Assembly (NCBI GenBank): GCA_027858995.1
Contig: JAQIBP010000056.1
Location: forward strand, 1 to 64,000
Length of the DNA: 64,000 nucleotides
Reading direction: 5' to 3'
DNA from: Deltaproteobacteria bacterium
Lineage (GTDB): Bacteria; Desulfobacterota; Desulfobacteria; Desulfobacterales; Desulfobacteraceae
A model generated the notes under the pieces. It saw nothing but the letters and a program-made list of their open reading frames with translations, made no database searches and was not told where the DNA came from. Positions 28,956-52,316 of the stretch are shown here, piece after piece. The position numbers and the translations under genes were made by a program. Position 1 is the stretch's first letter. The number at the start of each line of letters is the position of its first letter.

Positions 28956-29260
28956 AACTGTTTTCCATTATTTTTTCATTTCTTACAAAACCAATATCTG
29001 TTTTGTGCTTTTACAGGAAAAAAGCTACAGTTTTATATTAAATCATCAGTTTTTTATGTCCTTATGCTATTCTAAATTAGCATAAAACATGCCAGCAACT
29101 TTGAATCAGCTTAAATCCCAACGATATCAACTGGTTTGTGCTGCAGTAGATCAGAAGTGGCTTTATTTTTGGTGCTTAATTTAGAATATTTTCGAAATAT
29201 TTTTTTGCAAAATTACGAATTTTTATAAATTTACTATAACCCGATAAAGAATTTTATGTA

Positions 29261-29462
29261 ACCCGTTACAGGCTGCTTACCTTACGTCCGCTGGATGGAC
29301 ATTGCAACAAGTTCTAAGATCACCTTCGCTGACCGCCATGAACTCGCTCATGCTTCGCTCAAACAACATGGCGGCTTAACCGCTACGGTAATCAAGAACT
29401 TATAAGCAAAGATCCATAATGCTCCCATAAGGCAAACAGCCTTACACTGGCTGGTGCAGCAA
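29261..29462. repeat. 202-bp structured repeat, copy A
   Basis: ACCCGTTACAGGCTG...GTGCAGCAA closely matches 46385-46586; contains CCGCCATG...CATGGCGG inverted repeat. Confidence 0.9.
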
Positions 29463-29606
29463 GTTTGAAAAGACTTCATATACATCAAAGATTGCATAGC
29501 TGTCATGATCAAAGATAATCAGCTTGTTGCCAATTCTTCTTCCATTTTCAACCCTAATTGTAGCCTTCCCCTTTTTAGTTCCAAACAAAAGTAGAAACTT
29601 CGGGCG
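29443..29606 (-). pseudogene. C-terminal remnant of an unidentified protein
   Basis: Open minus frame IRPKFLLLFGTKKGKATIRVENGRRIGNKLIIFDHDSYAIFDVYEVFSNLLHQPV* with no start; ends inside repeat copy A. Confidence 0.35.
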
Positions 29607-29692
29607 AATTTAGCATGAGATAATACATAATTAATTTGTACACTTCTTTGATTGACACTTCAAAAGGTTTAACTATATATTTTTAAAAAACT

Positions 29693-30196
29693 ATGATAAT
29701 CAAAAAGAATAGCATAGTACATATAAGAGTTGGTAGGAGCAATAATATGGATTTTCTGAATAAAATTCCTAATTGGCTGAGATGGGTTTTGTCGTTGCCC
29801 ATAGCTCTATTAGCGCTTTTTATTTCTTATCCACTTATCATAATTTTAAATAAAATTACTATGATTGGTATAGGGGAAGGTTTTTTAACAAATCTTGTAA
29901 TACTATTACTGGCTAACCTATGGAGTGCAGCTGCTTTTATATGGGTCGGCGCGATAATAACACCACGTCATAATTTTATTGTTGCGGTTATTTTTGCAGT
30001 TTTCTACAGTTTTATACTTGGAGCATCGTTTTTTGCAAAATTTTCACTCGGGTCCAAATCGAGCATAACCTGGCTGGAAATGACTATAACGGTAATCGCT
30101 GGACTAGTCGCGGCTGTCGGAGTGGTTTATCATTTTTATGAGAATGAGACAAAGGTGAAAACCCACATTGAAAGCTATGATAGTGAATTATATTAG
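29693..30196 (+). CDS. Hypothetical membrane protein (about 4 TM)
   Basis: Hydrophobic segments LSLPIALLALFISYPLIIIL, FLTNLVILLLANLW, FIVAVIFAVFYSFILG, MTITVIAGLVAAVGVVYHF. Confidence 0.6.
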   Translation: MIIKKNSIVHIRVGRSNNMDFLNKIPNWLRWVLSLPIALLALFISYPLIIILNKITMIGIGEGFLTNLVILLLANLWSAAAFIWVGAIITPRHNFIVAVIFAVFYSFILGASFFAKFSLGSKSSITWLEMTITVIAGLVAAVGVVYHFYENETKVKTHIESYDSELY

Positions 30197-30355
30197 ATAG
30201 TTGGCTCTTAACTACCGACTTCATTGTATTGTAGGTGCTGAGCCGTTTGGAAAAGTTTTGGCTTTTTGAAACTTATCAAACATGAACAAGGTTAGTGGAA
30301 ATTTTCCCTGCAAACGGTGAACCTTAGTATTAAACTTGTTAAATGGTTTTAAAAA

Positions 30356-31162
30356 ATGGAAATAATTAACGATTTTGAGGCAACAATTAGTTTTAAACAT
30401 GACATTCTTTGGTACGCTCAAGAGAACTGGAAAGAGGCTGCTACAAAAATCAACAAAATGTTTAAAATTGATCCTCCACTATCAACGGACAACTATGCTA
30501 CTTTCAACTATTTTATATCTATTCTCTTCATTCAGTCAAGGGCTCCGTATAACTTGTACGGTCAAAAACAAGGTGATAGAATTTGGCAATACTTAAAAAA
30601 TTCTTTTTTAGCTGAAGAGCAATATGGTGAACATGCAATAAACTCATTGGAACTTTGTTTAGAAGGTTGGAATCACCATTCGGCAAAAAAAAATAATCCA
30701 TTAGGCGCTATTGCTTCTGTTCTTCTTTTTAGACTTAATTATAAAGAAAAAGATACAGACACCATACTTGGCCAACTTCTTGGAGATATATTGGGTCTCT
30801 CACCTCCTTGGTGGAAGAATTTTTCAAAAAAGAAGAAACTAACTAAGTCTGATATCCCTGTGGACTCAAAAAATTTTAATATTTTTTTTAAAGGCATGAA
30901 CCAAAATAATGAAAACATAGTAAACGACTATGATTTAAATGGGCTAACGTTATTGATGCGTGCTGTCCAAATTGGTGACGTGGGTCTTGTAAAAAATTTT
31001 CTCTCTAAAGGAGCTGACCCATTAAAAATTGATGGTAAATCTGGAACTACATCAGCAATCGGTTTAGTTTTACAGAAATTATCAACTGTTGAAAACGAAG
31101 AAAAAAGAGAACGATACAATTTAATATTAAATTTGTTTAAAGATCATTGTGAGAAAAAATAA
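30356..31162 (+). CDS. Ankyrin-repeat-containing hypothetical protein
   Basis: DLNGLTLLMRAVQIGDVGLVKNFLSKGADPLKIDGKSGTTSAIGLVLQ. Confidence 0.7.
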   Translation: MEIINDFEATISFKHDILWYAQENWKEAATKINKMFKIDPPLSTDNYATFNYFISILFIQSRAPYNLYGQKQGDRIWQYLKNSFLAEEQYGEHAINSLELCLEGWNHHSAKKNNPLGAIASVLLFRLNYKEKDTDTILGQLLGDILGLSPPWWKNFSKKKKLTKSDIPVDSKNFNIFFKGMNQNNENIVNDYDLNGLTLLMRAVQIGDVGLVKNFLSKGADPLKIDGKSGTTSAIGLVLQKLSTVENEEKRERYNLILNLFKDHCEKK

Positions 31163-31169
31163 TAGGGTT

Positions 31170-31242
31170 GTTTAACATTAGCTTTGAGAAGGATGCTGAT
31201 TTCGCTGCGCTTCATTCATGCTTTTCAAGCGGGGCGTTATGA
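31170..31242 (+). other. attC-like recombination site
   Basis: GTTTAAC (RYYYAAC) ... GCGTTATGA; arms GCTTTGAGAAG/CTTTTCAAGC pair with one unpaired base; lies exactly between two ORFs. Confidence 0.5.
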
Positions 31243-31851
31243 GTGATTAGTATTACCATGAATTCGGAACAAATTATAAAAAAGTTTTTATCTGGGTATC
31301 ATTTGCGCGCTGAAAAATTTGATAAAAAAAGATTTGGTAACGGAAAAACTCCTGATTATGAAGTATTCAAAAATGATAATTTGTTTTGCTATTGTGAAGT
31401 AAAAAACGCTAAGAAAGATATTTGGTTAGATCAAAAATTGAAAAAATCATCTCCAGGAGAAATGGTTGGTGGGCTACGTAATGATCCTGTTTTCAACCGT
31501 CTTACTTCACACATTCACAAATCTCGTAAACAGTTTGATGCTGTGAATAAGAATCAAGATACACCCAATATCCTTGCGTTCTATAATCAAGATCAAAATA
31601 GTGGTTTTTTAGACCTATTAGCCGTAATTACAGGGAACTTTTTTTCTGAAAATGGAAAAACCTACCCAATATATAAAAGCTTTTCAGAAGGTAGGATAAA
31701 AGCTGATATTGAAAAAATTCATCTGTTTATTTGGCTTGATGAGTTTAAACCACATAGATTTTTATTCAGTTTAGAAAGCAAGAAATTTCAGAATGAACTA
31801 TGTAAGGCATTCAAGTTCGACCCCAGAAAGCTTGAAATAGTTCATTCATAA
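31243..31851 (+). CDS. Predicted PD-(D/E)XK-like nuclease
   Basis: PDYEVFKNDNLFCYCEVKNA matches PD...(E)xK; GTG start at 31243 or ATG at 31258. Confidence 0.55.
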   Translation: MISITMNSEQIIKKFLSGYHLRAEKFDKKRFGNGKTPDYEVFKNDNLFCYCEVKNAKKDIWLDQKLKKSSPGEMVGGLRNDPVFNRLTSHIHKSRKQFDAVNKNQDTPNILAFYNQDQNSGFLDLLAVITGNFFSENGKTYPIYKSFSEGRIKADIEKIHLFIWLDEFKPHRFLFSLESKKFQNELCKAFKFDPRKLEIVHS

Positions 31852-31902
31852 CCTGTCGGCCCAGGTGACAGCCATGGTCTGCGCCGTTTTGGCAGGTTGT
31901 TG
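31847..31902 (+). other. attC-like hairpin directly after the PD-(D/E)XK ORF
   Basis: CATAACCTGTCGGC...GCCGTTTTGGCAGGTTGTTG imperfect inverted repeat; stop codon TAA embedded in CATAAC. Confidence 0.35.
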
Positions 31903-32004
31903 TAAAATTGAAATGTATAATTTTTAGCAGAGGTTGTGGAAACCCTAGCTGTACCTGACTTCTGTGTTCCATGTCACTGTGTAAAATAAAAAAAGGGTTA
32001 TGAT

Positions 32005-32652
32005 ATGATCTCATTTAATGAAATCAACAGCAAATATATGGGTGAGAATCTTCCTCAATCTAATATTCTCGGTATTGGTGGAAGTCCGAGAAGAGGTGGA
32101 AATTCAGATGTGCTTTTGAGGAATATTCTGCAAGGGATAAAAGATACTGAAGTCACTTTTGATGTTGCTCAATTACGGGATTTTCAATTCCAGCCATGTA
32201 TTGGCTGCGAGAAATGCAGAAAAGACAAAATCTGTACTGGGTTAATGGATGGAATGTCTTTGCTTTATCCTAAAATAATTGATGCCAGAGGTTTAGTACT
32301 TGTATCTCCTACTCACAACTATAATATTACAGCAATAATGAAAGCTTTTATTGATCGTCTCTACTGTTTTTACAATTTTGATAATAAAAATCGTCCGGGT
32401 CAATGGTCAAGCCAACTGAATAATCAAGGACGCAAGGCTGTCATAGCAGCGGTTTGTGAACAGAATAATAAAAAGGATATGGGTTTTACCCTGGATGCCA
32501 TGCGCCTACCCCTTGAAGCATTAGGCTATGAAATTATAGATGAACTTGCAGTTTTTGGAGTGTTTTCAAGGGGAAAAATAAAAGAAAAAACCAAAATTTT
32601 GGAAAAAGCCTCCATGCTTGGAACAAGTTTAGCTGAATCTATTATTAAATAA
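32005..32652 (+). CDS. NADPH-dependent FMN reductase-like / iron-sulfur flavoprotein
   Basis: ILGIGGSPRRGGNSDVLLRNIL; CIGCEKCRKDKIC; SPTHNYNITAIMKAFIDR. Confidence 0.88.
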   Translation: MISFNEINSKYMGENLPQSNILGIGGSPRRGGNSDVLLRNILQGIKDTEVTFDVAQLRDFQFQPCIGCEKCRKDKICTGLMDGMSLLYPKIIDARGLVLVSPTHNYNITAIMKAFIDRLYCFYNFDNKNRPGQWSSQLNNQGRKAVIAAVCEQNNKKDMGFTLDAMRLPLEALGYEIIDELAVFGVFSRGKIKEKTKILEKASMLGTSLAESIIK

Positions 32653-32812
32653 ACAGGTGTAGATATAGCAATCCTAAAGGTTTCAGAACAGCTGATTTTG
32701 CAGCAGCGTGTTGACTTAAATATTGAGTTGCAATAAAGATAGGGTTGCAGGGGAATAGATTTTGTTAAATATTGTTTTTAAAGGAAGATTATATTTTTGT
32801 TAAAATACTAAA

Positions 32813-42193: not shown

Positions 42194-43255
42194 ATGGGAG
42201 AGAGTATGCGTGTTCTTAAAATTTTGTTAATTCTATTTTTTTTAAACTGTTCATTGGTATATGCCCAAAGCAAATCTCCTGCAAGGGTGGTCACCTCAAA
42301 AATTGTTTTTCAGAATGTTGCACATAACAGATCTTTTATTGGCACGCTATATTATGAACGAATCAGTCATCTCTCTTCAGAAGTCACAGGACTTGTAACA
42401 AAAATCAATGTCAGAACCGGAGATAAAGTCAATCAGGGTTCATCTCTAATTTATCTTGACAGACAAATACTTGAAAAAGAGATCCTGATTCATAAAACAA
42501 GGATTGAACAGGCAAAGCTTAATATAAATCACATGCAGAAAAAATATCATAGAGTAGAATCTTTGTTCAAAAAAGGGACAATAAGTGAAAATGATTATGA
42601 TGATGCAAAATTTGCAGTTAAAGAAGCTCTTTTAAAAGAAAAATCTGCCGGAACAATTCTGGAAAAGTTGCTTATTCAAAAGAGCAAAAAAGAGATTAAA
42701 GCTCCTTTTGACGGAATCATCCTGGAAAAAAAAGTGGATTCAGGCGACTGGGTTCAGCCGGGAAAAGTTTTGCTTCGTATAGGTTCAGTTAATGATCTTT
42801 TTATAAAAGTACCTGTGGCAGAAACCATGTTGAGATTTATTGTTCAAGATCAGAAAGTACCTGTAATCATTACTGCCTATAATAAAAAAATGGTTGGAAC
42901 AATTGAAAATCTCTCTCCGGAAGCAGATGCAAAAACCAAAAATATCTTTTTAAAAATTCGGATTCCCATGCTCAACAGGGCTGCCATAAACATGTCTGCC
43001 ACTGTATTTATTCCCACAAGCAGAAAACAAAGACTGGCAATGATATCAAGGGATGCACTGGTAAATTTCCAGGGCAAAGATTTTATCTATACAATAAAAG
43101 AGAAAAAAGCAGTCATGCTGCCAATAAATATTGTTACATATCTCGATAACATGGTAGGTGCGGATAATGAACATTTTGTTCAAGGAATGCCAATAGTTGT
43201 TGAAGGTAATGAACGACTGCAGCCGGGTCAGGCAGTTGTAATTGTCGGAGAGTAA
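42194..43255 (+). CDS. RND efflux periplasmic adaptor (membrane fusion protein)
   Basis: SSEVTGLVTKINVRTGDKVNQGSSLIYLD; APFDGIILEKKVDSGDWVQPGKVLLRIG. Confidence 0.93.
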   Translation: MGESMRVLKILLILFFLNCSLVYAQSKSPARVVTSKIVFQNVAHNRSFIGTLYYERISHLSSEVTGLVTKINVRTGDKVNQGSSLIYLDRQILEKEILIHKTRIEQAKLNINHMQKKYHRVESLFKKGTISENDYDDAKFAVKEALLKEKSAGTILEKLLIQKSKKEIKAPFDGIILEKKVDSGDWVQPGKVLLRIGSVNDLFIKVPVAETMLRFIVQDQKVPVIITAYNKKMVGTIENLSPEADAKTKNIFLKIRIPMLNRAAINMSATVFIPTSRKQRLAMISRDALVNFQGKDFIYTIKEKKAVMLPINIVTYLDNMVGADNEHFVQGMPIVVEGNERLQPGQAVVIVGE

Positions 43256-43258
43256 TTA

Positions 43259-46200
43259 ATGGATATTATCCGTTTTTTTATCAACAAACCTGTAACTGTT
43301 GCCGTGGGTGTAATCATGGTGGTTATATTCGGGTTTATTGGTATTCAAAAACTTCCGGTTCAACTCACTCCTGATGTTGAAACTCCTTTGATCACAGTGA
43401 ATACAGCCTGGTATGGTGCCACGCCCTATGAAGTTGAAAAAGAGATCATTGAAAAACAGGAAAAAGTTCTAAAGGGCTTGCAGGGACTGACCAAGATGGA
43501 GAGTTCGAGTTACAACAGCCTCGGCACCATAACTCTATCTTTTCAAATCAATACAGATCTGGACGATGCCCTGCTCAGGGTGTCCAATAAATTATCCGAG
43601 GTCAGCAACTATCCGGAAAATGTAAACAAACCAACCATAGAGTCTTCCGGAGCCAACAGCTCACCCATCATCTGGATGGTTATGAAAACAAAACCAGACA
43701 ACACAGAGCATATTAATCAGTTTAAAACTTTTTTTGAGGACAGTGTCCGTCAGCATCTGGAGCGAATTAATGGTGTTGGTTCCCTTTTAATTTTCGGCGG
43801 CACTGAAACAACCCTGGATGTGATAATTGATGCACAGAAAATGGCTCTCTATAATGTTTCAATCAATAATATCATCACATCCATCCGCCAGGCAAATAAA
43901 AATATTTCCGCCGGTATTCTGGGTATGGCCAAGAAAAATTACCGTATCAGAACCATAAGTCAGTTTCAGGCCAAAGATGATGTCCTTGATGTGGTTGTCT
44001 TTGATGACGGAATAAAGCGGGTTTACCTGCGGGATATTGCCCATGTTAAAAAAGGATATAAAAAAGAGAGTTCTTCAGTGCTGCATAATGGTGAACAGGT
44101 TATCGTAGCGGGTGTACGAAAAGAGAAAGGTGCCAATGTCCTGAATATGACAGACCTGGTGGAAAAAGCGGTTCACCATTTGAACAAAACCATCCTTGCC
44201 AGTAACAGGTTAAGTCTTGAAATAGTTTATGATCAGCGCCCCTACATTAATACAGCAATCAATCTGGTAAAGCGCAATATCATCATCGGTGGTCTGCTTG
44301 CTATCTGTGTGCTTTTACTGTTTTTAAGAAGCGTAAGGGCCACATTGATTACAGGTGTTGCAATTCCTATTGCAGCTGTGGGCTGTTTTATCTTCCTATG
44401 GCTGCTGGGAAGAAACCTGAATGTTGTGAGCATGGCTGGAATTTCCTTTGCTGTGGGTATGCTTGTGGATAACTCCATTGTGGTACTTGAAAACATTGAT
44501 CGGCACAGCAAAAAAGGCAAAAAAGCTTTTAATGCAGCTTATGATGGAACAAGAGAGGTGTGGGGCGCAGTTCTTGCCTCCACAGCAACCACAATAGCAG
44601 TATTCCTGCCGGTTATATTTATTCATGAAGAGGCAGGACAACTGTTCCGTGATATTGCCATTGCAGTTACTTCTGCGATTTTTTTGAGCCTTATTGTTTC
44701 AGTCTCCGTGATTCCAACTCTCTTTAACCTGCTTTACAAAAAAGAGTATACCACAAAGCAGGGCAGGCTGCAGAAAAGTTTTATAGGTCCGTTCCTTGCC
44801 GGTATTATATTAAACTTCAGCAAATTGTGCATGAAAAATGTGGTAACCCGACTGTTAACGATTGTTTTGTTTACAACTCTCTCCATTGGTTTAACCTTTC
44901 AGCTTCTGCCAAGCGCTGAATATCTTCCCCAGGGCAATAGAAATCTTATTTTAAATATTCTTATACCGCCTCCTGGATATTCTACAGCTAAACTCAAAAA
45001 CATTGGCAGAAATATATATGAAGAATCCAGGCCATATTTTGAGGAAGATGGCAAAGATGGCTTTCCAATGATTAAAAATATGTTTTTTGTAGGAGCTGAT
45101 CGTGTCACGCTTTTTGGAGGGATAAGCATCCATGAAACACGTGCACGTGAATTGATTCCCCTTTTTAACAAGATAATGAGGTCAATTCCAGGTGTTTTCG
45201 GAGTCAGTATTCAGGCCGGGATTTTCCAGTCTGGAATTGGTGAGGGAAGAACAGTGGATGTCAATGTTTCAGGCGAAAAAATTCAAGATATTATCAATGC
45301 TTCATTTGCTCTGTTCAGTACCATAGGTGCAAAAATGGAACACTCCCAGGTTCGTCCGGTACCTTCCCTTGAAGCCAGTTATCCAGAGGTGAGAATAATT
45401 CCCAGAAAAGAGAAACTTGCTGCCAACGGTCTTACAGCACAGGATCTCGGTGTATATGTCGATATCCTCATGGATGGCCGTAAAATTGAAGAATATCGTC
45501 CCGAGGGGATAAAACAGAATGATCTGGTTCTTAAAGGCAAGATTTCTGCAGTTAGATCTCCCGAGGATATTTTGAACAGCATAATTGTAAACAGATTTGG
45601 AGATCTTATACGGGTGAAGGATGTGGCAGATATTGAATACAGCCAGGGTTTGCCCCAGATAAATCACCTGGAAAGAGACAGAACAATCACCCTTCAGGTT
45701 ACTCCACCTGCTGATCTCTCTTTACAGAATGCCATGGAGCTTATAGAAAATGATATCATCCCTCTATTGGAAAAAGAGGGGAGACTTCAAAATGTCAGAG
45801 TGGACATTGGCGGAAATGCTGATAAACTTGTGGCTACAAGGAATGCACTTCAGTGGAATCTTCTGCTGGCATTAATCATTACCTATCTGCTGATGTCAGC
45901 ACTGTTTGAAAATTTTCTTTATCCTTTTATTATTCTCTTTTCTCTGCCTCTTGCCGGAGCAGGAGGTTTTGCAGGACTTTGGGCGGTAAATGCATTGATT
46001 GCTCCCCAGGGTTTTGATGTTTTGAGCATGCTGGGATTTATAATTCTGATCGGCACAGTTGTAAACAATGCCATTCTTATTGTTCATCAATCTTTGAATA
46101 ATGTCCGCTATAATGGTCTCATTGGAAAAGATGCTGTGACTGATGCTGTTAAAACCAGAATCAGGCCCATTTTCATGAGCGCCATCACCAGTCTTCTTGC

Positions 46201-46369
46201 AATGCTGCCCATGGTGCTGTCAACCGGTTCCGGAAGTGAACTCTATCGAGGTCTGGGCTCAATTTTGCTTGGAGGCCTTGCCATGTCAACAATTTTTACA
46301 CTTTTTGTGATTCCGTCTCTTCTGGTTTTTGTTATTGGAATTGAAACTGATAAAACTGTGAATTCTTGA
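43259..46369 (+). CDS. RND-family efflux transporter permease (AcrB/MdtC-like)
   Basis: 1036 aa; INKPVTVAVGVIMVVIFGFIGIQKLPVQLTPDVETP, GMLVDNSIVVLENI, GTVVNNAILIVH. Confidence 0.96.
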   Translation: MDIIRFFINKPVTVAVGVIMVVIFGFIGIQKLPVQLTPDVETPLITVNTAWYGATPYEVEKEIIEKQEKVLKGLQGLTKMESSSYNSLGTITLSFQINTDLDDALLRVSNKLSEVSNYPENVNKPTIESSGANSSPIIWMVMKTKPDNTEHINQFKTFFEDSVRQHLERINGVGSLLIFGGTETTLDVIIDAQKMALYNVSINNIITSIRQANKNISAGILGMAKKNYRIRTISQFQAKDDVLDVVVFDDGIKRVYLRDIAHVKKGYKKESSSVLHNGEQVIVAGVRKEKGANVLNMTDLVEKAVHHLNKTILASNRLSLEIVYDQRPYINTAINLVKRNIIIGGLLAICVLLLFLRSVRATLITGVAIPIAAVGCFIFLWLLGRNLNVVSMAGISFAVGMLVDNSIVVLENIDRHSKKGKKAFNAAYDGTREVWGAVLASTATTIAVFLPVIFIHEEAGQLFRDIAIAVTSAIFLSLIVSVSVIPTLFNLLYKKEYTTKQGRLQKSFIGPFLAGIILNFSKLCMKNVVTRLLTIVLFTTLSIGLTFQLLPSAEYLPQGNRNLILNILIPPPGYSTAKLKNIGRNIYEESRPYFEEDGKDGFPMIKNMFFVGADRVTLFGGISIHETRARELIPLFNKIMRSIPGVFGVSIQAGIFQSGIGEGRTVDVNVSGEKIQDIINASFALFSTIGAKMEHSQVRPVPSLEASYPEVRIIPRKEKLAANGLTAQDLGVYVDILMDGRKIEEYRPEGIKQNDLVLKGKISAVRSPEDILNSIIVNRFGDLIRVKDVADIEYSQGLPQINHLERDRTITLQVTPPADLSLQNAMELIENDIIPLLEKEGRLQNVRVDIGGNADKLVATRNALQWNLLLALIITYLLMSALFENFLYPFIILFSLPLAGAGGFAGLWAVNALIAPQGFDVLSMLGFIILIGTVVNNAILIVHQSLNNVRYNGLIGKDAVTDAVKTRIRPIFMSAITSLLAMLPMVLSTGSGSELYRGLGSILLGGLAMSTIFTLFVIPSLLVFVIGIETDKTVNS

Positions 46370-46384
46370 GCTAATGTTCCATAG

Positions 46385-46586
46385 ACCCGTTACAGGCTGA
46401 TTACCTTACATCCGCTGGATGGACATGGCAACAAGTTCTAAGATTATCTTCGCTGGCCGCCATGAACTCGCTCATGCTTCGCTCAAACAACATGGCGGCT
46501 TAACCGCTACGTTAATCAAGAACTTGTAAGCAATGATCCATAATGCTCCCGTAAGGTAATCAGCCTTCCACTGGAGTGCACAGCAA
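46385..46586. repeat. 202-bp structured repeat, copy B
   Basis: Matches copy A in the same orientation; AGGCTGATTACCTTAC (46394-46409) / GTAAGGTAATCAGCCT (46551-46566) perfect 16-bp inverted ends; inner GCCGCCATG/CATGGCGGC. Confidence 0.9.
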
Positions 46587-46591
46587 TTTTG

Positions 46592-46861
46592 TTATGCCAC
46601 TTTCTGTATTAACTCTGCTTCATATTCAGGAAACATTATAATAGCTGGATGAACACCAAATGCATGTGCCAATTGTTCAGCGCGTTTCTTGCCGATATCC
46701 ACTTTGTTATTTTCTAAAAGACTAATATTTTTAGAATTAATACCAGACTGTTTTGCAAGTTCTTCTTGTGTCCACTCTTTCAGTTCTCTCAACATACGGA
46801 TTACTTCCCCCGTGGTAATTGAAGCATGTTTTTTAGCTGGTACAAAATTTTTCTTTTTCAT
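46592..46861 (-). CDS. XRE-family HTH antitoxin-like protein
   Basis: RELKEWTQEELAKQSGINSKNISLLENNKVDIGKKRAEQLAHAF. Confidence 0.85.
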   Translation of the reverse strand: MKKKNFVPAKKHASITTGEVIRMLRELKEWTQEELAKQSGINSKNISLLENNKVDIGKKRAEQLAHAFGVHPAIIMFPEYEAELIQKVA

Positions 46862-46869
46862 ATTGTTCC

Positions 46870-47005
46870 CCCTAATATTTATGAGGAGTTAATTCTAATA
46901 CATAAACGGTTACTTCTTTCGCCATCTATTTCATAAATAACTCTATACTGTAAATCTATCCGTGAAGATCGTTGTCCCTCATGATTTTTGGGTAGCAGTT
47001 TTTTA
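46870..47005 (-). pseudogene. Truncated, frameshifted RelE/HigB-type toxin remnant
   Basis: Minus strand IKKLLPKNHEGQRSSRIDLQYRVIYEIDG then +1 shift to KEVTVYVLELTPHKY*; immediately upstream of the HTH antitoxin. Confidence 0.6.
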
Positions 47006-47023
47006 ATTATTTTTTGGTGTTAT

Positions 47024-47377
47024 TTACAGTTCTTTAGGTTCAGTAAGAAGCTTGAGGCCTTCAAGAATTTTATACATTCTTTTCTCTGATACTTGACCAA
47101 TCTTTTCAACTAAGTCGCTTTTATTTACTGTGTAAATTTGTGAAATATTAACAACGCTTTTTTTGGGCAAGTTGGCTTCACTTTTGTTGAGAGGGACATT
47201 TCCAGGGGCTTTAGCTCTTTTTAAATTTGAAGTTAAAGAACATACAACAACAGTATTGATATTGCTTGAATTGAATATATTGTTTTGAATTACAATATGT
47301 GGATGCCTGTAACCAGGTTCAGACCCTCTTGGTTCTCCTAAGTTTACCCAATAAATTCCACCTTGTTTTGCTACCAT
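47024..47377 (-). CDS. MazF/PemK-family toxin
   Basis: GGIYWVNLGEPRGSEPGYRHPHIVIQNNIFNSSNINTVVVCSLTSNLKRA. Confidence 0.92.
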   Translation of the reverse strand: MVAKQGGIYWVNLGEPRGSEPGYRHPHIVIQNNIFNSSNINTVVVCSLTSNLKRAKAPGNVPLNKSEANLPKKSVVNISQIYTVNKSDLVEKIGQVSEKRMYKILEGLKLLTEPKEL

Positions 47378-47628
47378 GATTCTCGCCCTACAATTTTGCG
47401 ATGTTTTTCATGCATAGCTTTTGAAATTGTCTTTTCTTCTCCATTTGGTGAATCGCTATAAGCCGCATTAAGTTGAGCAAGTAGCATTTTATTCTCTTGC
47501 TTTTTTAAATAATCTTTGACAGCAAGGGCAAACAATTTACTGCGTGACACATGTAAATCTTTGGATAGTTGGTTGACTTGATTGAATAAATTCGTTTCTA
47601 ATGATATTGCAGTTTTTACACTGGACAT
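47371..47628 (-). CDS. Ribbon-helix-helix-type antitoxin (MazE-like partner)
   Basis: KTAISLETNLFNQVNQLSKDLHVSRSKLFALAVKDYLKKQ; overlaps the mazF-like start. Confidence 0.85.
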   Translation of the reverse strand: MSSVKTAISLETNLFNQVNQLSKDLHVSRSKLFALAVKDYLKKQENKMLLAQLNAAYSDSPNGEEKTISKAMHEKHRKIVGRESW

Positions 47629-47745
47629 TTAGATACCTCCATATATAATATTTGCATATGTTATATCTGTAATTATTTATCATATTTATACTTTTGTCAA
47701 TACTTTAATTCATACAATACTGTTTCTTATCGGTAGTGATTCGAC

Positions 47746-47877
47746 TGCTAACGGCCCTAATAAGTTGCCGAAAATACAACGGGATGAAACCTTGAAAGAC
47801 CGGAAAATATTGATTGCAGGTGCCACTCTGACAAAAAAGCCGCTATTTTCTGTCAACTCTTCATTCGATGGTTATGT
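47746..47877 (-). other. Possible long attC-like site
   Basis: Minus strand CATAACC... to ...GGGCCGTTAGC, about 130 bp, directly after the 47885-48556 ORF; arm pairing is imperfect. Confidence 0.25.
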
Positions 47878-47884
47878 TTTGCAT

Positions 47885-48556
47885 TTATTCAATTATCGAT
47901 TTGTATAATAGGTCAGCATTATTTCCCTTGAAATTGACCCATTTCTGAATATCTTCAATACCTTTCATTTGTTGACTTGCATTATTTGTTTCTAAACCGG
48001 CAAGGTATAATTTCCATCCTTTCAATAAATGCTCTTTAAAATATACTTTTAATTTTGGGTGGACACTATTTAAAAAGTCCTTTGAAACCAAAAGACCAAA
48101 TCTTATACCGTCATTTATTAATGATTTCATCTCCTCTTCTTGCATTTCCGAAAGTTGAACAATATTCCCATTTTTGTCTGATTGCATTTCATGAGCTTTT
48201 ATAAATGACATAATCGCATTTTTACAATTCAACTTATCGATTTTCCCATTCTCAACAACAATCATATGCTGGTTTTTTGAGTCTGAAGCTTGACTTTTAA
48301 ATTCAGGGAAAAAGTGTGTAGAAAAAATACCAACAATTGAAAATATTAAACATGCAAATGTGACTCCCATATTCGCCCATACCCAAAACCTTACTACATT
48401 TCCTCCTGAATTATCCCTGGCTGCCGTTTTAACGGTTTCTCCCGTGAGCCAATCAAGAATAAATAAAACGAGAATTATCCACCACAGGATATTGTGGGCA
48501 GTCCCCCATAGTTTGTATAGAGCAAAGGCAGCGATTATAGAAATAATGAATTTCAT
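47885..48556 (-). CDS. Hypothetical protein with N-terminal TM segments
   Basis: FIISIIAAFALYKLW, ILWWIILVLFILDWL, VWANMGVTFACLIFSIVGIF; soluble C-terminus. Confidence 0.6.
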   Translation of the reverse strand: MKFIISIIAAFALYKLWGTAHNILWWIILVLFILDWLTGETVKTAARDNSGGNVVRFWVWANMGVTFACLIFSIVGIFSTHFFPEFKSQASDSKNQHMIVVENGKIDKLNCKNAIMSFIKAHEMQSDKNGNIVQLSEMQEEEMKSLINDGIRFGLLVSKDFLNSVHPKLKVYFKEHLLKGWKLYLAGLETNNASQQMKGIEDIQKWVNFKGNNADLLYKSIIE

Positions 48557-48584
48557 TAGTTCCCCCTATATTCCTAGAACACTA

Positions 48585-48654
48585 GCATAACCAGCATTTT
48601 TCAGAGCGCAGTGAGCGAAGCGAACGGAGCGGTGAAAAACGTCTGTGTTTATGC
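48585..48654 (-). other. attC-like hairpin between OLD-nuclease and TM-protein ORFs
   Basis: GCATAA (48585-48590) / TTATGC (48649-48654), TTTTTCA (48596-48602) / TGAAAAA (48633-48639), CAG/CTG pairing between; GCTTCGCTC in the apex. Confidence 0.5.
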
Positions 48655-48659
48655 ATTTA

Positions 48660-50471
48660 TTAACTTTTTATATAATCCCCGAAAATTGCTTTCATTTTAT
48701 CTTTCCAACTATCTGGAATGGAATTCCAATCATTCCCCCATTTCACAGTTTCCTGAAAAGCCCTAAACGGCTTCTCGGAGGACGGGGCTGCATATCCTAT
48801 TTCATCTTCAACATTTTCATGCATCTGAATTACCCTTCCATTTTCACCAATTGCATCAGCAATTGGCTGGTTAAACTTTACAGCTCCATCTATGCCATCA
48901 TCTCTGTCATGCACCACAATGGGCTTAATTCCCATTGCTACTAAGTATTTTGCAAGTCCTATAATGGATGCTTTTCCTCTTGCTTTAACTATCTCATAAT
49001 CGGCAACAATTTTTAAGTATTGATCTTGCGGTAATTTTTTAAGGGTTTCTGCAATTAAAATTTCTTCTGTGTCGCCCTCAATAACAACAACATGCTTGGT
49101 GAAAAAAACTCTTGCGATATGATCATCTACTCGTAACAGCATTTTGACATGGGTTTTGTCATCCTCCGCTAGTGCTCTGTATGCAATTGTAACATTAAAA
49201 GGATTTGCTTCAACTCCAGATGGAGTGATACACATATTGTTCAAAATTTGTTTGGGTTTCCTTGAGAGGTCTATAATGAAGGGGGAGTGTGTTGTTGCAA
49301 CAATTTGTGATCCACTTGTACTCAAATCATAAATTGTATCACGCATTTGGTTGGCTGCACTGGGATGAAGGAATATTTCAGGTTCTTCGAAGCAAACGAT
49401 AAGGGAACGCTGATGCTCGTCTTCTTTTCTTGACAACCACTTCTGGCGAAACCTTAGCATTCCAAACGCAGCAGCTCTTACCATTCCAGAACCTTGATGC
49501 GTAACGGGTGTCCTAACATTACTGGACATTTCAACTTTGAATGTAGGTTTAAGTGCTTTATTTGGATCACTAAGGTCTGTTGTCGCATGAAGCTGAGAAT
49601 CAGGGAAAACACTAGATAAAACATCATTAAGTTCAGTAATCATCTTTCCAAACTCTGAAGCATCATCTTCAGGATCCAACTCTTTGGATAATTTATCTAA
49701 GTAACTTTGAGCTTGCTGATAATTATCAGAACTCTCTCTTACATCTTCAAATAGTTCATTCAAAGTTTTTCCCAAAACACCTGAGGCTGATCCTTCTATT
49801 TCACTTATGGAAGTATCAGCAGGAATGAGAAGGAAACGAGGAAGCATTTTAAGTACATTCCCAGGTATCCCGCCCGGGTTTTGAAACCATGTTTCTTCTT
49901 CACCAAGAATCCAAATTTCATCCAATTGCTCAAGCTTCTCTATGGCTCCTTTACTTTTACCGATATTTTTCGATAAGTCAGAAAAAAGACTGCTTATAAG
50001 TTCTTCATCTATGCCCTTGTCAATATAGTCTTGGCCTTTTTTACAATCTGCATATTCTGAATCCAGTTCACGCTCTTTTGACTTGAATTCAATTTTTACG
50101 TCAACACCAAGTTTGAAGGTTTTACGATATGTAACTGACAACCCAGAGTCATCCTCATCATCCGTTTCGTAGTTGAATATACGCCCTTTGAATCCTCTCC
50201 ACTGATGTGCGTCATCTGGTAAGTTGCGAAACTCAGCCTCAAGAATAATCTCTGCTACCGCTGGTTTTGTTTCTCCAGTTTCATCATCGATTACAGAATA
50301 ATATTCTGGGCTTGGAATAGTTTTCTTCGCAGAAAGCAAGTATTCAATTGCTTTAAACGCCGTACTCTTACCTGAGTTATTTGCTCCAATAAGAAAAGTT
50401 GCATCTTCGAACAAAATACTTGCGGATCGGATTCTTCTAAATCCTTCGATTTTTAATGAATATAATTTCAT
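48660..50471 (-). CDS. OLD-family ATP-dependent endonuclease (ABC-type ATPase + TOPRIM)
   Basis: LIGANNSGKSTAFKAIEYLL Walker A; CFEEPEIFLHPSAANQM; TOPRIM VVIEGDTEEILIAETL, VVHDRDDGIDG. Confidence 0.9.
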   Translation of the reverse strand: MKLYSLKIEGFRRIRSASILFEDATFLIGANNSGKSTAFKAIEYLLSAKKTIPSPEYYSVIDDETGETKPAVAEIILEAEFRNLPDDAHQWRGFKGRIFNYETDDEDDSGLSVTYRKTFKLGVDVKIEFKSKERELDSEYADCKKGQDYIDKGIDEELISSLFSDLSKNIGKSKGAIEKLEQLDEIWILGEEETWFQNPGGIPGNVLKMLPRFLLIPADTSISEIEGSASGVLGKTLNELFEDVRESSDNYQQAQSYLDKLSKELDPEDDASEFGKMITELNDVLSSVFPDSQLHATTDLSDPNKALKPTFKVEMSSNVRTPVTHQGSGMVRAAAFGMLRFRQKWLSRKEDEHQRSLIVCFEEPEIFLHPSAANQMRDTIYDLSTSGSQIVATTHSPFIIDLSRKPKQILNNMCITPSGVEANPFNVTIAYRALAEDDKTHVKMLLRVDDHIARVFFTKHVVVIEGDTEEILIAETLKKLPQDQYLKIVADYEIVKARGKASIIGLAKYLVAMGIKPIVVHDRDDGIDGAVKFNQPIADAIGENGRVIQMHENVEDEIGYAAPSSEKPFRAFQETVKWGNDWNSIPDSWKDKMKAIFGDYIKS

Positions 50472-50503
50472 GTGTATCCCTTGTTGAAGTTAACCATTTA
50501 TTC

Positions 50504-50562
50504 ACAAGGCTATTTTACCTGATAAGTCGCAAAATTGGCTATTATCAGGTAGAATTGCCTTG
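50504..50562. other. Strong inverted repeat in the predicted attI position
   Basis: ACAAGGCTATTTTACCTGATAA (50504-50525) vs TTATCAGGTAGAATTGCCTTG (50542-50562), about 2 mismatches, 16-nt loop. Confidence 0.6.
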
Positions 50563-50618
50563 CTAATTATTTTCATTAATTACCTTACAAATATTCATTT
50601 TGCAAAGGAGAAAAAGAT

Positions 50619-50790
50619 ATGTCAAGTAAAAACAATAAACGTCTTTTTGATGAAGCCCGGGATTATATGAGATTGAAACATTTTTGACCTATCTTGCAGA
50701 GAAACAAAAAGTTGTTCCTGCTACACAAAAGCAGGCTATGAATGGAACTGGCAATATGTATTTCCATCTAATCTTTCAAAAGATTCACTG
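50619..50790 (+). pseudogene. Integron integrase (IntI-type tyrosine recombinase) remnant with internal deletions
   Basis: AAGGAG RBS + MSSKNNKRLFDEARDYMRLKH | FLTYLAEKQKVVPATQKQAMN | YEWNWQYVFPSNLSKDS; three separated IntI-like blocks in two frames. Confidence 0.65.
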
Positions 50791-50939
50791 TCTCTATTGC
50801 AGCGGCAGAGCCTGCACCGATCATCAGAGCAGTAATCACATGAATAACAGTCCTTGCAGGGATGTTTTTTTTTACAACTGCTCTGTTTTTCAGGAATATA
50901 TAATTTGCCCTGCAAGCCTGGCAGTTTCACAAAAGCCAT
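50736..50939 (-). CDS. Small cysteine-rich putative metal-binding protein (possibly altered 3' end)
   Basis: MAFVKLPGLQGKLYIPEKQSSCKKKHPCKDCYSCDYCSDDRCRLCRC; tail overlaps the intI remnant antisense. Confidence 0.55.
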   Translation of the reverse strand: MAFVKLPGLQGKLYIPEKQSSCKKKHPCKDCYSCDYCSDDRCRLCRCNRDSESFERLDGNTYCQFHS

Positions 50940-51089
50940 AATTGAATCCTTATTTACTCAACTGGTGTTGACAGTTTTACAATGCACCGTTTTCTTATAA
51001 GATAAACAATAAATGTTGGGAATCAAGAGATTATGAGTAATTTACCGTGTTCGGCATTAATCATTATCAGTAGGAATTTGATACAGTTT

Positions 51090-52316
51090 TTATTCCATCA
51101 AAGAGCAGATCTCCTTTGCAAATTCAGAGCATTTTAATTTTGTTGAGCCCTCTATCTGTCTTGCAAGATCATAGGTGACTGTTTTATTTAAAATGGTTTT
51201 TTGCAAAGCCTGGCGGACTGTTTTTGATGCTTTATCCCAACCTAAGTGGTCCAGCATCATGGCGCCTGAAAGTATCAGAGAACCCGGGTTTACCTTGTCC
51301 AGGCCTGCATATTTTGGAGCAGTTCCATGGGTTGCTTCAAAAACAGCGCAATTATCACCAATATTGGCCCCGGGAGCTAATCCAAGCCCGCCTACCATTG
51401 CAGCCAGCAGATCTGAAATATAGTCTCCGTTAAGGTTTGGAGCTGCTATTACATCATATTCACTTGGGCGCAAAAGTACCTGCTGGAACATATTATCTGC
51501 AATCCTCTCCTTTAAAACAATTCTGCCTTCAGGAATTTTGCCGTCAAATTCTTTCCACAGTTTTTGCTCAGTGATAATACTATCTTTGAATTCATCTTCA
51601 CCAACTTCATATCCCCATTTTAAAAATGCACCTTCAGTATATTTCATGATATTGCCTTTGTGCATAATGGTGACATTTTTCCGATCATTATCAATGGCAT
51701 ATTGAATGGCCTTTGAAATCAACCGCTTGGTATATTGTTCACTTATGGGTTTAATGCCGATTCCAGTGGTGGTTTCATCAAGGTTTTTGGATGTTTTTTT
51801 ATTGATGAAATGAAGGACTTCTTTTGCCTCTTTTGTTCCTGCTTCCCACTCAATTCCAAGGTAGATATCTTCAGTGTTTTCCCGGAAAATTATCATATCA
51901 ATGTTTTCAGGTTCGCTGCATGGAGAGGGAACACCCTGAATATATTTTGCAGGGCGGATACAGGCAAAAAGATCTAGTTCCTGGCGGATAGCAACATTCA
52001 GGCTTCTCATGCCATGTCCTACCGGAGTTGTTAAGGGGCCTTTGATTGCCACTTTATATTTTTGTATCTGTTCCAATGTCTTTTTGGGCAGCCATTCACC
52101 TGTTTTTTTAAAGGAATCCTCTCCGGCAGGAATTTCTTTGAATAGTATTTTCTTATCACCTTTGTAAGCTGTTTTAACAGCTTTGTCCAACACAAGCCGT
52201 GTTGCATTCCAGATATCATGTCCTGTGCCGTCTCCTGGTATATAGGGTATAACCGGGGTGTCTGGAACAATTAATGAGCCGTCTTTATTGAGTTCAATGA
52301 TATTTTCCATGAACAA
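51090..52316 (-). CDS. icd: Isocitrate dehydrogenase (NADP-type)
   Basis: [83 protein letters not shown]. Confidence 0.96.

Follow-up and report, generated by a model that had tools for sequence, protein, structure and literature searches.

About one third of the intI genes surveyed are pseudogenes (PMC2426708), and in Xanthomonas species the cassette arrays stay stable after intI has been lost (PMC12444791). Complete integrons and clusters of attC sites without an integrase (CALIN) occur at about the same frequency (PMC9024848). The locus described here lies in a window of 64,000 nucleotides, positions 1-64000 of contig C126 in a genome (G000) of 3.98 Mb and 172 contigs. The segment at 48.58-50.78 kb is likely to be the attI end of a chromosomal integron, in which intI has collapsed and the gene for an OLD-family nuclease is the first cassette. 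Like chromosomal integrons with an inactivated intI (in Xanthomonas, PMC12444791; PMC2426708), the locus combines a truncated intI with a short, frozen array and genes that are left intact. Unlike them, its intI scrap is much shorter, only one cassette (OLD) is well supported, and attC sites are eroded or absent. Both dead integrases and cassette clusters that lack an integrase are kinds already known, and the locus is therefore a fresh instance rather than a new type. A preliminary description of this DNA had proposed a relic integron with every accessory gene unit as an attC-separated cassette; the proposal is well supported for the intI scrap and at least the OLD cassette, for which a dead chromosomal integron is the best reading, but does not extend to every gene unit.

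In a TIGR02249 search of the whole genome, two intact IntI genes scored above the cut-off, with 429 bits (contig C1) and 345 bits (contig C46). The search also gave a match in the window (50570-50815, plus strand, E = 1.2e-4), which contains internal stop codons. The C1 integron (L031, 7300-18363) encodes an intact IntI of 333 aa and shows clear attC-like sites in its gaps, and its genes run divergently from intI. Domains encoded in this array include TIR (CAP12-like, and ThsB-like beside 8xMP), GIY-YIG, BrnT and ParE-type toxins. The relic resembles the C1 integron in that intI is divergent from genes of defence and toxin-antitoxin types, an arrangement that counts for the relic reading, but it lacks both the intact IntI and the clear attC sites. 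The C46 IntI-type protein (L033, 7081-8412) is about 443 aa long and extended at its N-terminus by about 110-130 residues; no attC array was seen beside its gene. Long IntI-type proteins of this kind occur in several genomes of the genus (L090-L092, L097-L101, L103), and an IntI clade of long proteins has been described as having arisen by gene fusion (PMC2426708). In genome G007, a minus-strand ORF of 446 aa is present three times on one locus (L105; 2849-4189, 4780-6120 and 14097-15437); the copies adjoin near-identical attC sites, have a conserved structured leader and may be group IIC-attC introns.

Table 1. Features of the relic locus and of the integrase-less island, in positions of the 64,000-nucleotide window
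Feature	Position	Strand	Basis
Cassette island without integrase: three ORFs, then FMN reductase gene	28977..32675	+	attC homology, scanner, empty sites
Island attC sites	about 30203-30334, 31170-31242, 31848-31970		homology to C1 attC or scanner
Dispersed repeat of ~200 bp, not attC	46385..46590		genome matches, alignment
XRE antitoxin-like gene	46592..46861	-	Pfam HTH_3
MazF/PemK toxin gene	47024..47377	-	Pfam PemK_toxin, E = 4e-28
Ribbon-helix-helix (RHH) antitoxin gene	47371..47628	-	Pfam RHH_3
Membrane protein gene (TM), 223 aa, possible second cassette	47885..48556	-	ORF
attC-like hairpin GCATAAAC...GTTATGC	48585..48654	-	sequence, fold, position
OLD-family nuclease gene, 603 aa, intact, putative first cassette	48660..50471	-	Pfam, PADLOC
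Candidate attI crossover box GTTAACT	50488..50494	-	sequence; inferred
Strong imperfect hairpin at attI position between intI and OLD	50500..50567		arms, fold
Possible intI start, MSSKNNKRLFDEARDYMRLKHF	50619..50681	+	likeness by eye only
intI remnant, N-terminal SAM-like piece EIETFLTYLAEKQKVVPATQKQAMN	50669..50746	+	identity to genus IntI, DNA match
intI remnant, middle piece EWNWQYVFPSN, different frame	about 50740..50772	+	WQYVFPS motif, DNA match

What is left of intI corresponds to about residues 62-88 and 227-238 of IntI, with stops and a frame change, and the two pieces are collinear with IntI, in the right order and on the right strand. The first piece is 44-62% identical to IntI proteins of the genus across 21-26 aligned positions; its best IntI match scores 38 bits, versus 12 bits or less for the other tyrosine recombinases of the genome, and 77 nt of its DNA match the intact intI of G006 at 71% identity. 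The WQYVFPS motif of the middle piece is identical in five IntI proteins of the genus, the piece scores 29 bits to IntI versus at most 16 bits to the other recombinases, and 23 nt of its DNA match three intact intI genes at 91% identity. The intI-like pseudogene of the preliminary description is thus real, at 50669-50772, by the TIGR02249 match, the tblastn and blastp blocks and the DNA match to G006, and its blocks prefer IntI over non-integron proteins. The closest relative of the scrap is not the C1 IntI. The pieces are short, 25 and about 11 residues, and because their DNA overlaps slightly, one of the two includes a few residues by chance. Further upstream, MSSKNNKRLFDEARDYMRLKH looks, by eye only, like the start of IntI; blastp of this stretch gave nothing significant. 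A small Cys-rich ORF (50736-50939, minus strand) has a C-terminal end that is read antisense to the intI scrap, and it is therefore possibly a chimera; no relatives of it were found among the compared loci.

About 134 IntI residues are gone between the two pieces, as is the catalytic C-terminal part. In the intI of G006 the second piece aligns 423 bp beyond the first, hence an internal stretch of ~420 bp has been lost from the scrap, and GAAT(G)-like sequence is found at both edges of the gap. The gene would have shrunk to a scrap of ~100-150 bp by one or more internal deletions, including one of about 420 bp at a short GAATG-like repeat, and by loss of the 3' part. With no intact intI and no catalytic C-terminal domain the relic is not a complete functional integron; a recognisable intI pseudogene is what a relic (inactivated) chromosomal integron should show, and it is present here.

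The hairpin previously noted between intI and the first ORF exists and is strong (26-nt arms, 85% complementary; folding z = -6.2), but the AAC/GTT core boxes of an attC are absent from its ends. The candidate crossover box lies 23 nt upstream of the OLD ATG and may be compared with GTTAACTC, found 5' of the ATG of an OLD relative (L123, below); no similarity was found between this box and the attI of integrons of the genus. A Pc-type promoter was sought near intI, and a promoter-like site (10/12) was found at 50625-50597 on the minus strand, the count of such sites being at chance level.

The OLD protein matches Pfam AAA_15 and OLD-like_TOPRIM above the cut-off and the PADLOC Old model with 211 bits. 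It is full length and contains both the ABC-type ATPase and the TOPRIM domain, as do OLD-family nucleases (PADLOC Old, GajA relatives), and it probably has a role in phage defence. Unlike these nucleases, it has no adjacent GajB-type helicase partner and is a putative integron cassette. A sample of 389 further genomes of the class contained no close relative, an absence that is expected for captured genes. One scan of genome contigs yielded three relatives, with 73-77% identity, in mutually unrelated metagenome-assembled genomes of a deltaproteobacterium (L121), a member of the Pirellulaceae (L122) and a Sulfuricella (L123). All three have attC-like flanks, identified by eye: in L121 a canonical attC lies directly 5' of the gene and a second attC-like start 3' of it; in L122 TCTAAC..GGTTAGCC runs up to the ATG, with the contig end downstream; and in L123 the ATG is preceded by the sequence given above and the gene is followed by GGCTAACCC.. 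on its 3' side. No intI was seen in the three loci. Only OLD qualifies as a gene of horizontal origin that is shared with other integrons.

The attC-like hairpin of Table 1 starts 5 nt past the OLD stop codon. Its R boxes, inner stem and position fit an attC, with one extra A in the R'' box, and GTTAT-type R' boxes are found in the C1 array too. It is present as a single copy in the genome and is unrelated to the attC sites of the island. For DNA of this composition the hairpin folds with ordinary energy (z about -1.1 to -1.3), and folding z-scores fail to separate attC from other DNA (a supported island site has z = -0.7). When a criterion was fitted to the site, 7 of 3000 shuffled versions of the gap satisfied it, and it was satisfied 8 times in 143 kb of DNA outside the arrays; since the criterion was chosen afterwards, these figures are suggestive only. 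A covariance model trained on 11 attC sites from integrons of the genus recovered several of those sites. It returned no significant match in the window, yet the well-supported attC sites of the island escaped it as well, so that its silence on this hairpin is uninformative. Three home-made attC scanners found the island site 31170-31242 and are insensitive to decayed sites; an Rfam search of the window gave zero matches. Judged by its boxes and its place, the hairpin is a plausible but decayed attC, and OLD the best-supported of the putative cassettes of the relic.

The divergent run of minus-strand ORFs had been described correctly, in that OLD, TM, RHH, MazF/PemK and XRE were all found opposite the intI scrap. 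Their separation by attC sites was not confirmed, as only the imperfect site after OLD was recognised, and the home-made scanners found none between TM, RHH-MazF and XRE. The TM protein could be assigned to no family and has no relative in the 389 other class genomes or in plasmids; again such absence is expected for a captured gene, and TM may be the second cassette. MazF relatives occur in 81 of 390 class genomes, and no attC boundaries were seen around them. The RHH-MazF pair has a promoter-like site of its own (11/12). Ahead of XRE, at about 46870-47000, lies what appears by eye to be a frameshifted toxin tail (weak ParE_toxin match, E = 0.058). RHH-MazF and XRE may be cassettes that lost their attC sites or separate insertions.

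The palindrome at the far end of the cluster had also been taken for an attC. This candidate is ruled out, being a copy of a ~200-bp dispersed repeat that folds strongly, has 28 matches in its own genome (19 copies were aligned) and occurs with patchy copy number in 15 of 26 genomes of the genus. A second copy in the window lies at 29261-29467, and others are carried by contigs C25, C147, C153, C62, C136, C77 and more, where copies adjoin ordinary genes. The repeat is possibly a MITE- or REP-like element. Thus, among the hairpins that had been considered, one is attC-like, one is this repeat and one lacks the core boxes; a palindrome that the eye takes for an attC can belong to an unrelated dispersed repeat.

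These observations bear on the strongest of the alternatives, namely that the cluster is a composite defence island, in which OLD, TM, RHH-MazF and XRE were inserted independently, by transposition or homologous exchange, next to a scrap of intI that was already old, and the hairpin resembles an attC by chance. It would account for the want of a recognisable attC between most of the genes, for the MazF relatives without attC boundaries and the separate promoter-like site of RHH-MazF, for the dispersed repeat that closes the cluster and for the ordinary folding energy of the hairpin. We nevertheless consider it unlikely, because OLD sits exactly at the intI-proximal place of a first cassette, in cassette orientation, and because its nearest relatives carry attC-like flanks.

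The island at 28977-32675 is a genuine insertion of attC-bearing integron cassettes. One C1 attC matches its stretch 31848-31958 at 81% identity (E = 6e-24) and is the only relative of that stretch in the genome; a different C1 attC matches 30220-30320 at 75% identity, and the site 31170-31242, which a home-made scanner found between two ORFs, has canonical boxes. In G017 homology ends at window position 28976 and restarts at 32676, and in G004 and G016 the genes that flank the island are adjacent. The site is therefore empty in three relatives, and ~3.7 kb was inserted. With at least two attC sites (by C1 homology and the home-made scanner) and no integrase nearby the island is a CALIN, and it resembles those described (PMC9024848) in that it carries three attC-like sites but lacks its own integrase. 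The preliminary description was right in regarding it as integron cassette DNA, but its suggestion that the island is a displaced part of the relic is not supported, since two attC sites of the island have counterparts in the intact C1 integron, and nothing ties the island to the relic. That both are broken parts of one integron is accordingly a very improbable reading: they share the window, cassette-like genes and the same dispersed repeat, but the relic attC-like site is unrelated to those of the island and single-copy, and the repeat also adjoins ordinary genes elsewhere. Scarcely credible is an origin of the pseudogene from another tyrosine recombinase (Xer-like or a phage integrase), for although the pieces are short and such recombinases are many in the genome, both pieces, WQYVFPS included, strongly favour IntI and are collinear with it.

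Together with RND efflux genes, the relic occupies 42194-51090, between acs and icd. In G005 and G010 the locus holds acs, an exonuclease-III-like gene (recognised by eye) and icd, and the RND genes and the relic are absent. The strain comparison that had been suggested revealed this different gene order, but no empty site for the relic alone; the locus has been rearranged, and the history of the integron at the relic is not traceable from it.

On the reading of the locus as a dead chromosomal integron, and following established integron biology, circular cassettes would have been inserted at the adjacent attI while intI was intact, and the latest captured cassette would stand first in line, which is the position of OLD. 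Site-specific recombination at the candidate box GTTAACT (50494) is the probable route by which OLD was captured, and the OLD cassette, which points away from intI, would be followed by the slightly decayed attC (48654-48585). Loss of intI would have fixed the local order, so that the array could no longer recruit by itself; the intact C1 IntI might act in trans on any functional attC site.

Three stages would thus coexist in the genome: on C1 an intact integron with TIR-type and toxin genes, an integrase-less cluster at 30-32 kb of the window, and a dead integron at 48.6-50.8 kb. The last of these adds a case in which a probable phage-defence gene outlasts the integron that captured it. We suggest, as a tentative proposal that we hold at somewhat less than even confidence, that a single OLD lineage (73-77% identical) moves as an integron cassette among distant bacteria and has stayed intact here after the death of the integrase; if this is true, capture by integrons would be one of the ways in which this defence gene spreads.
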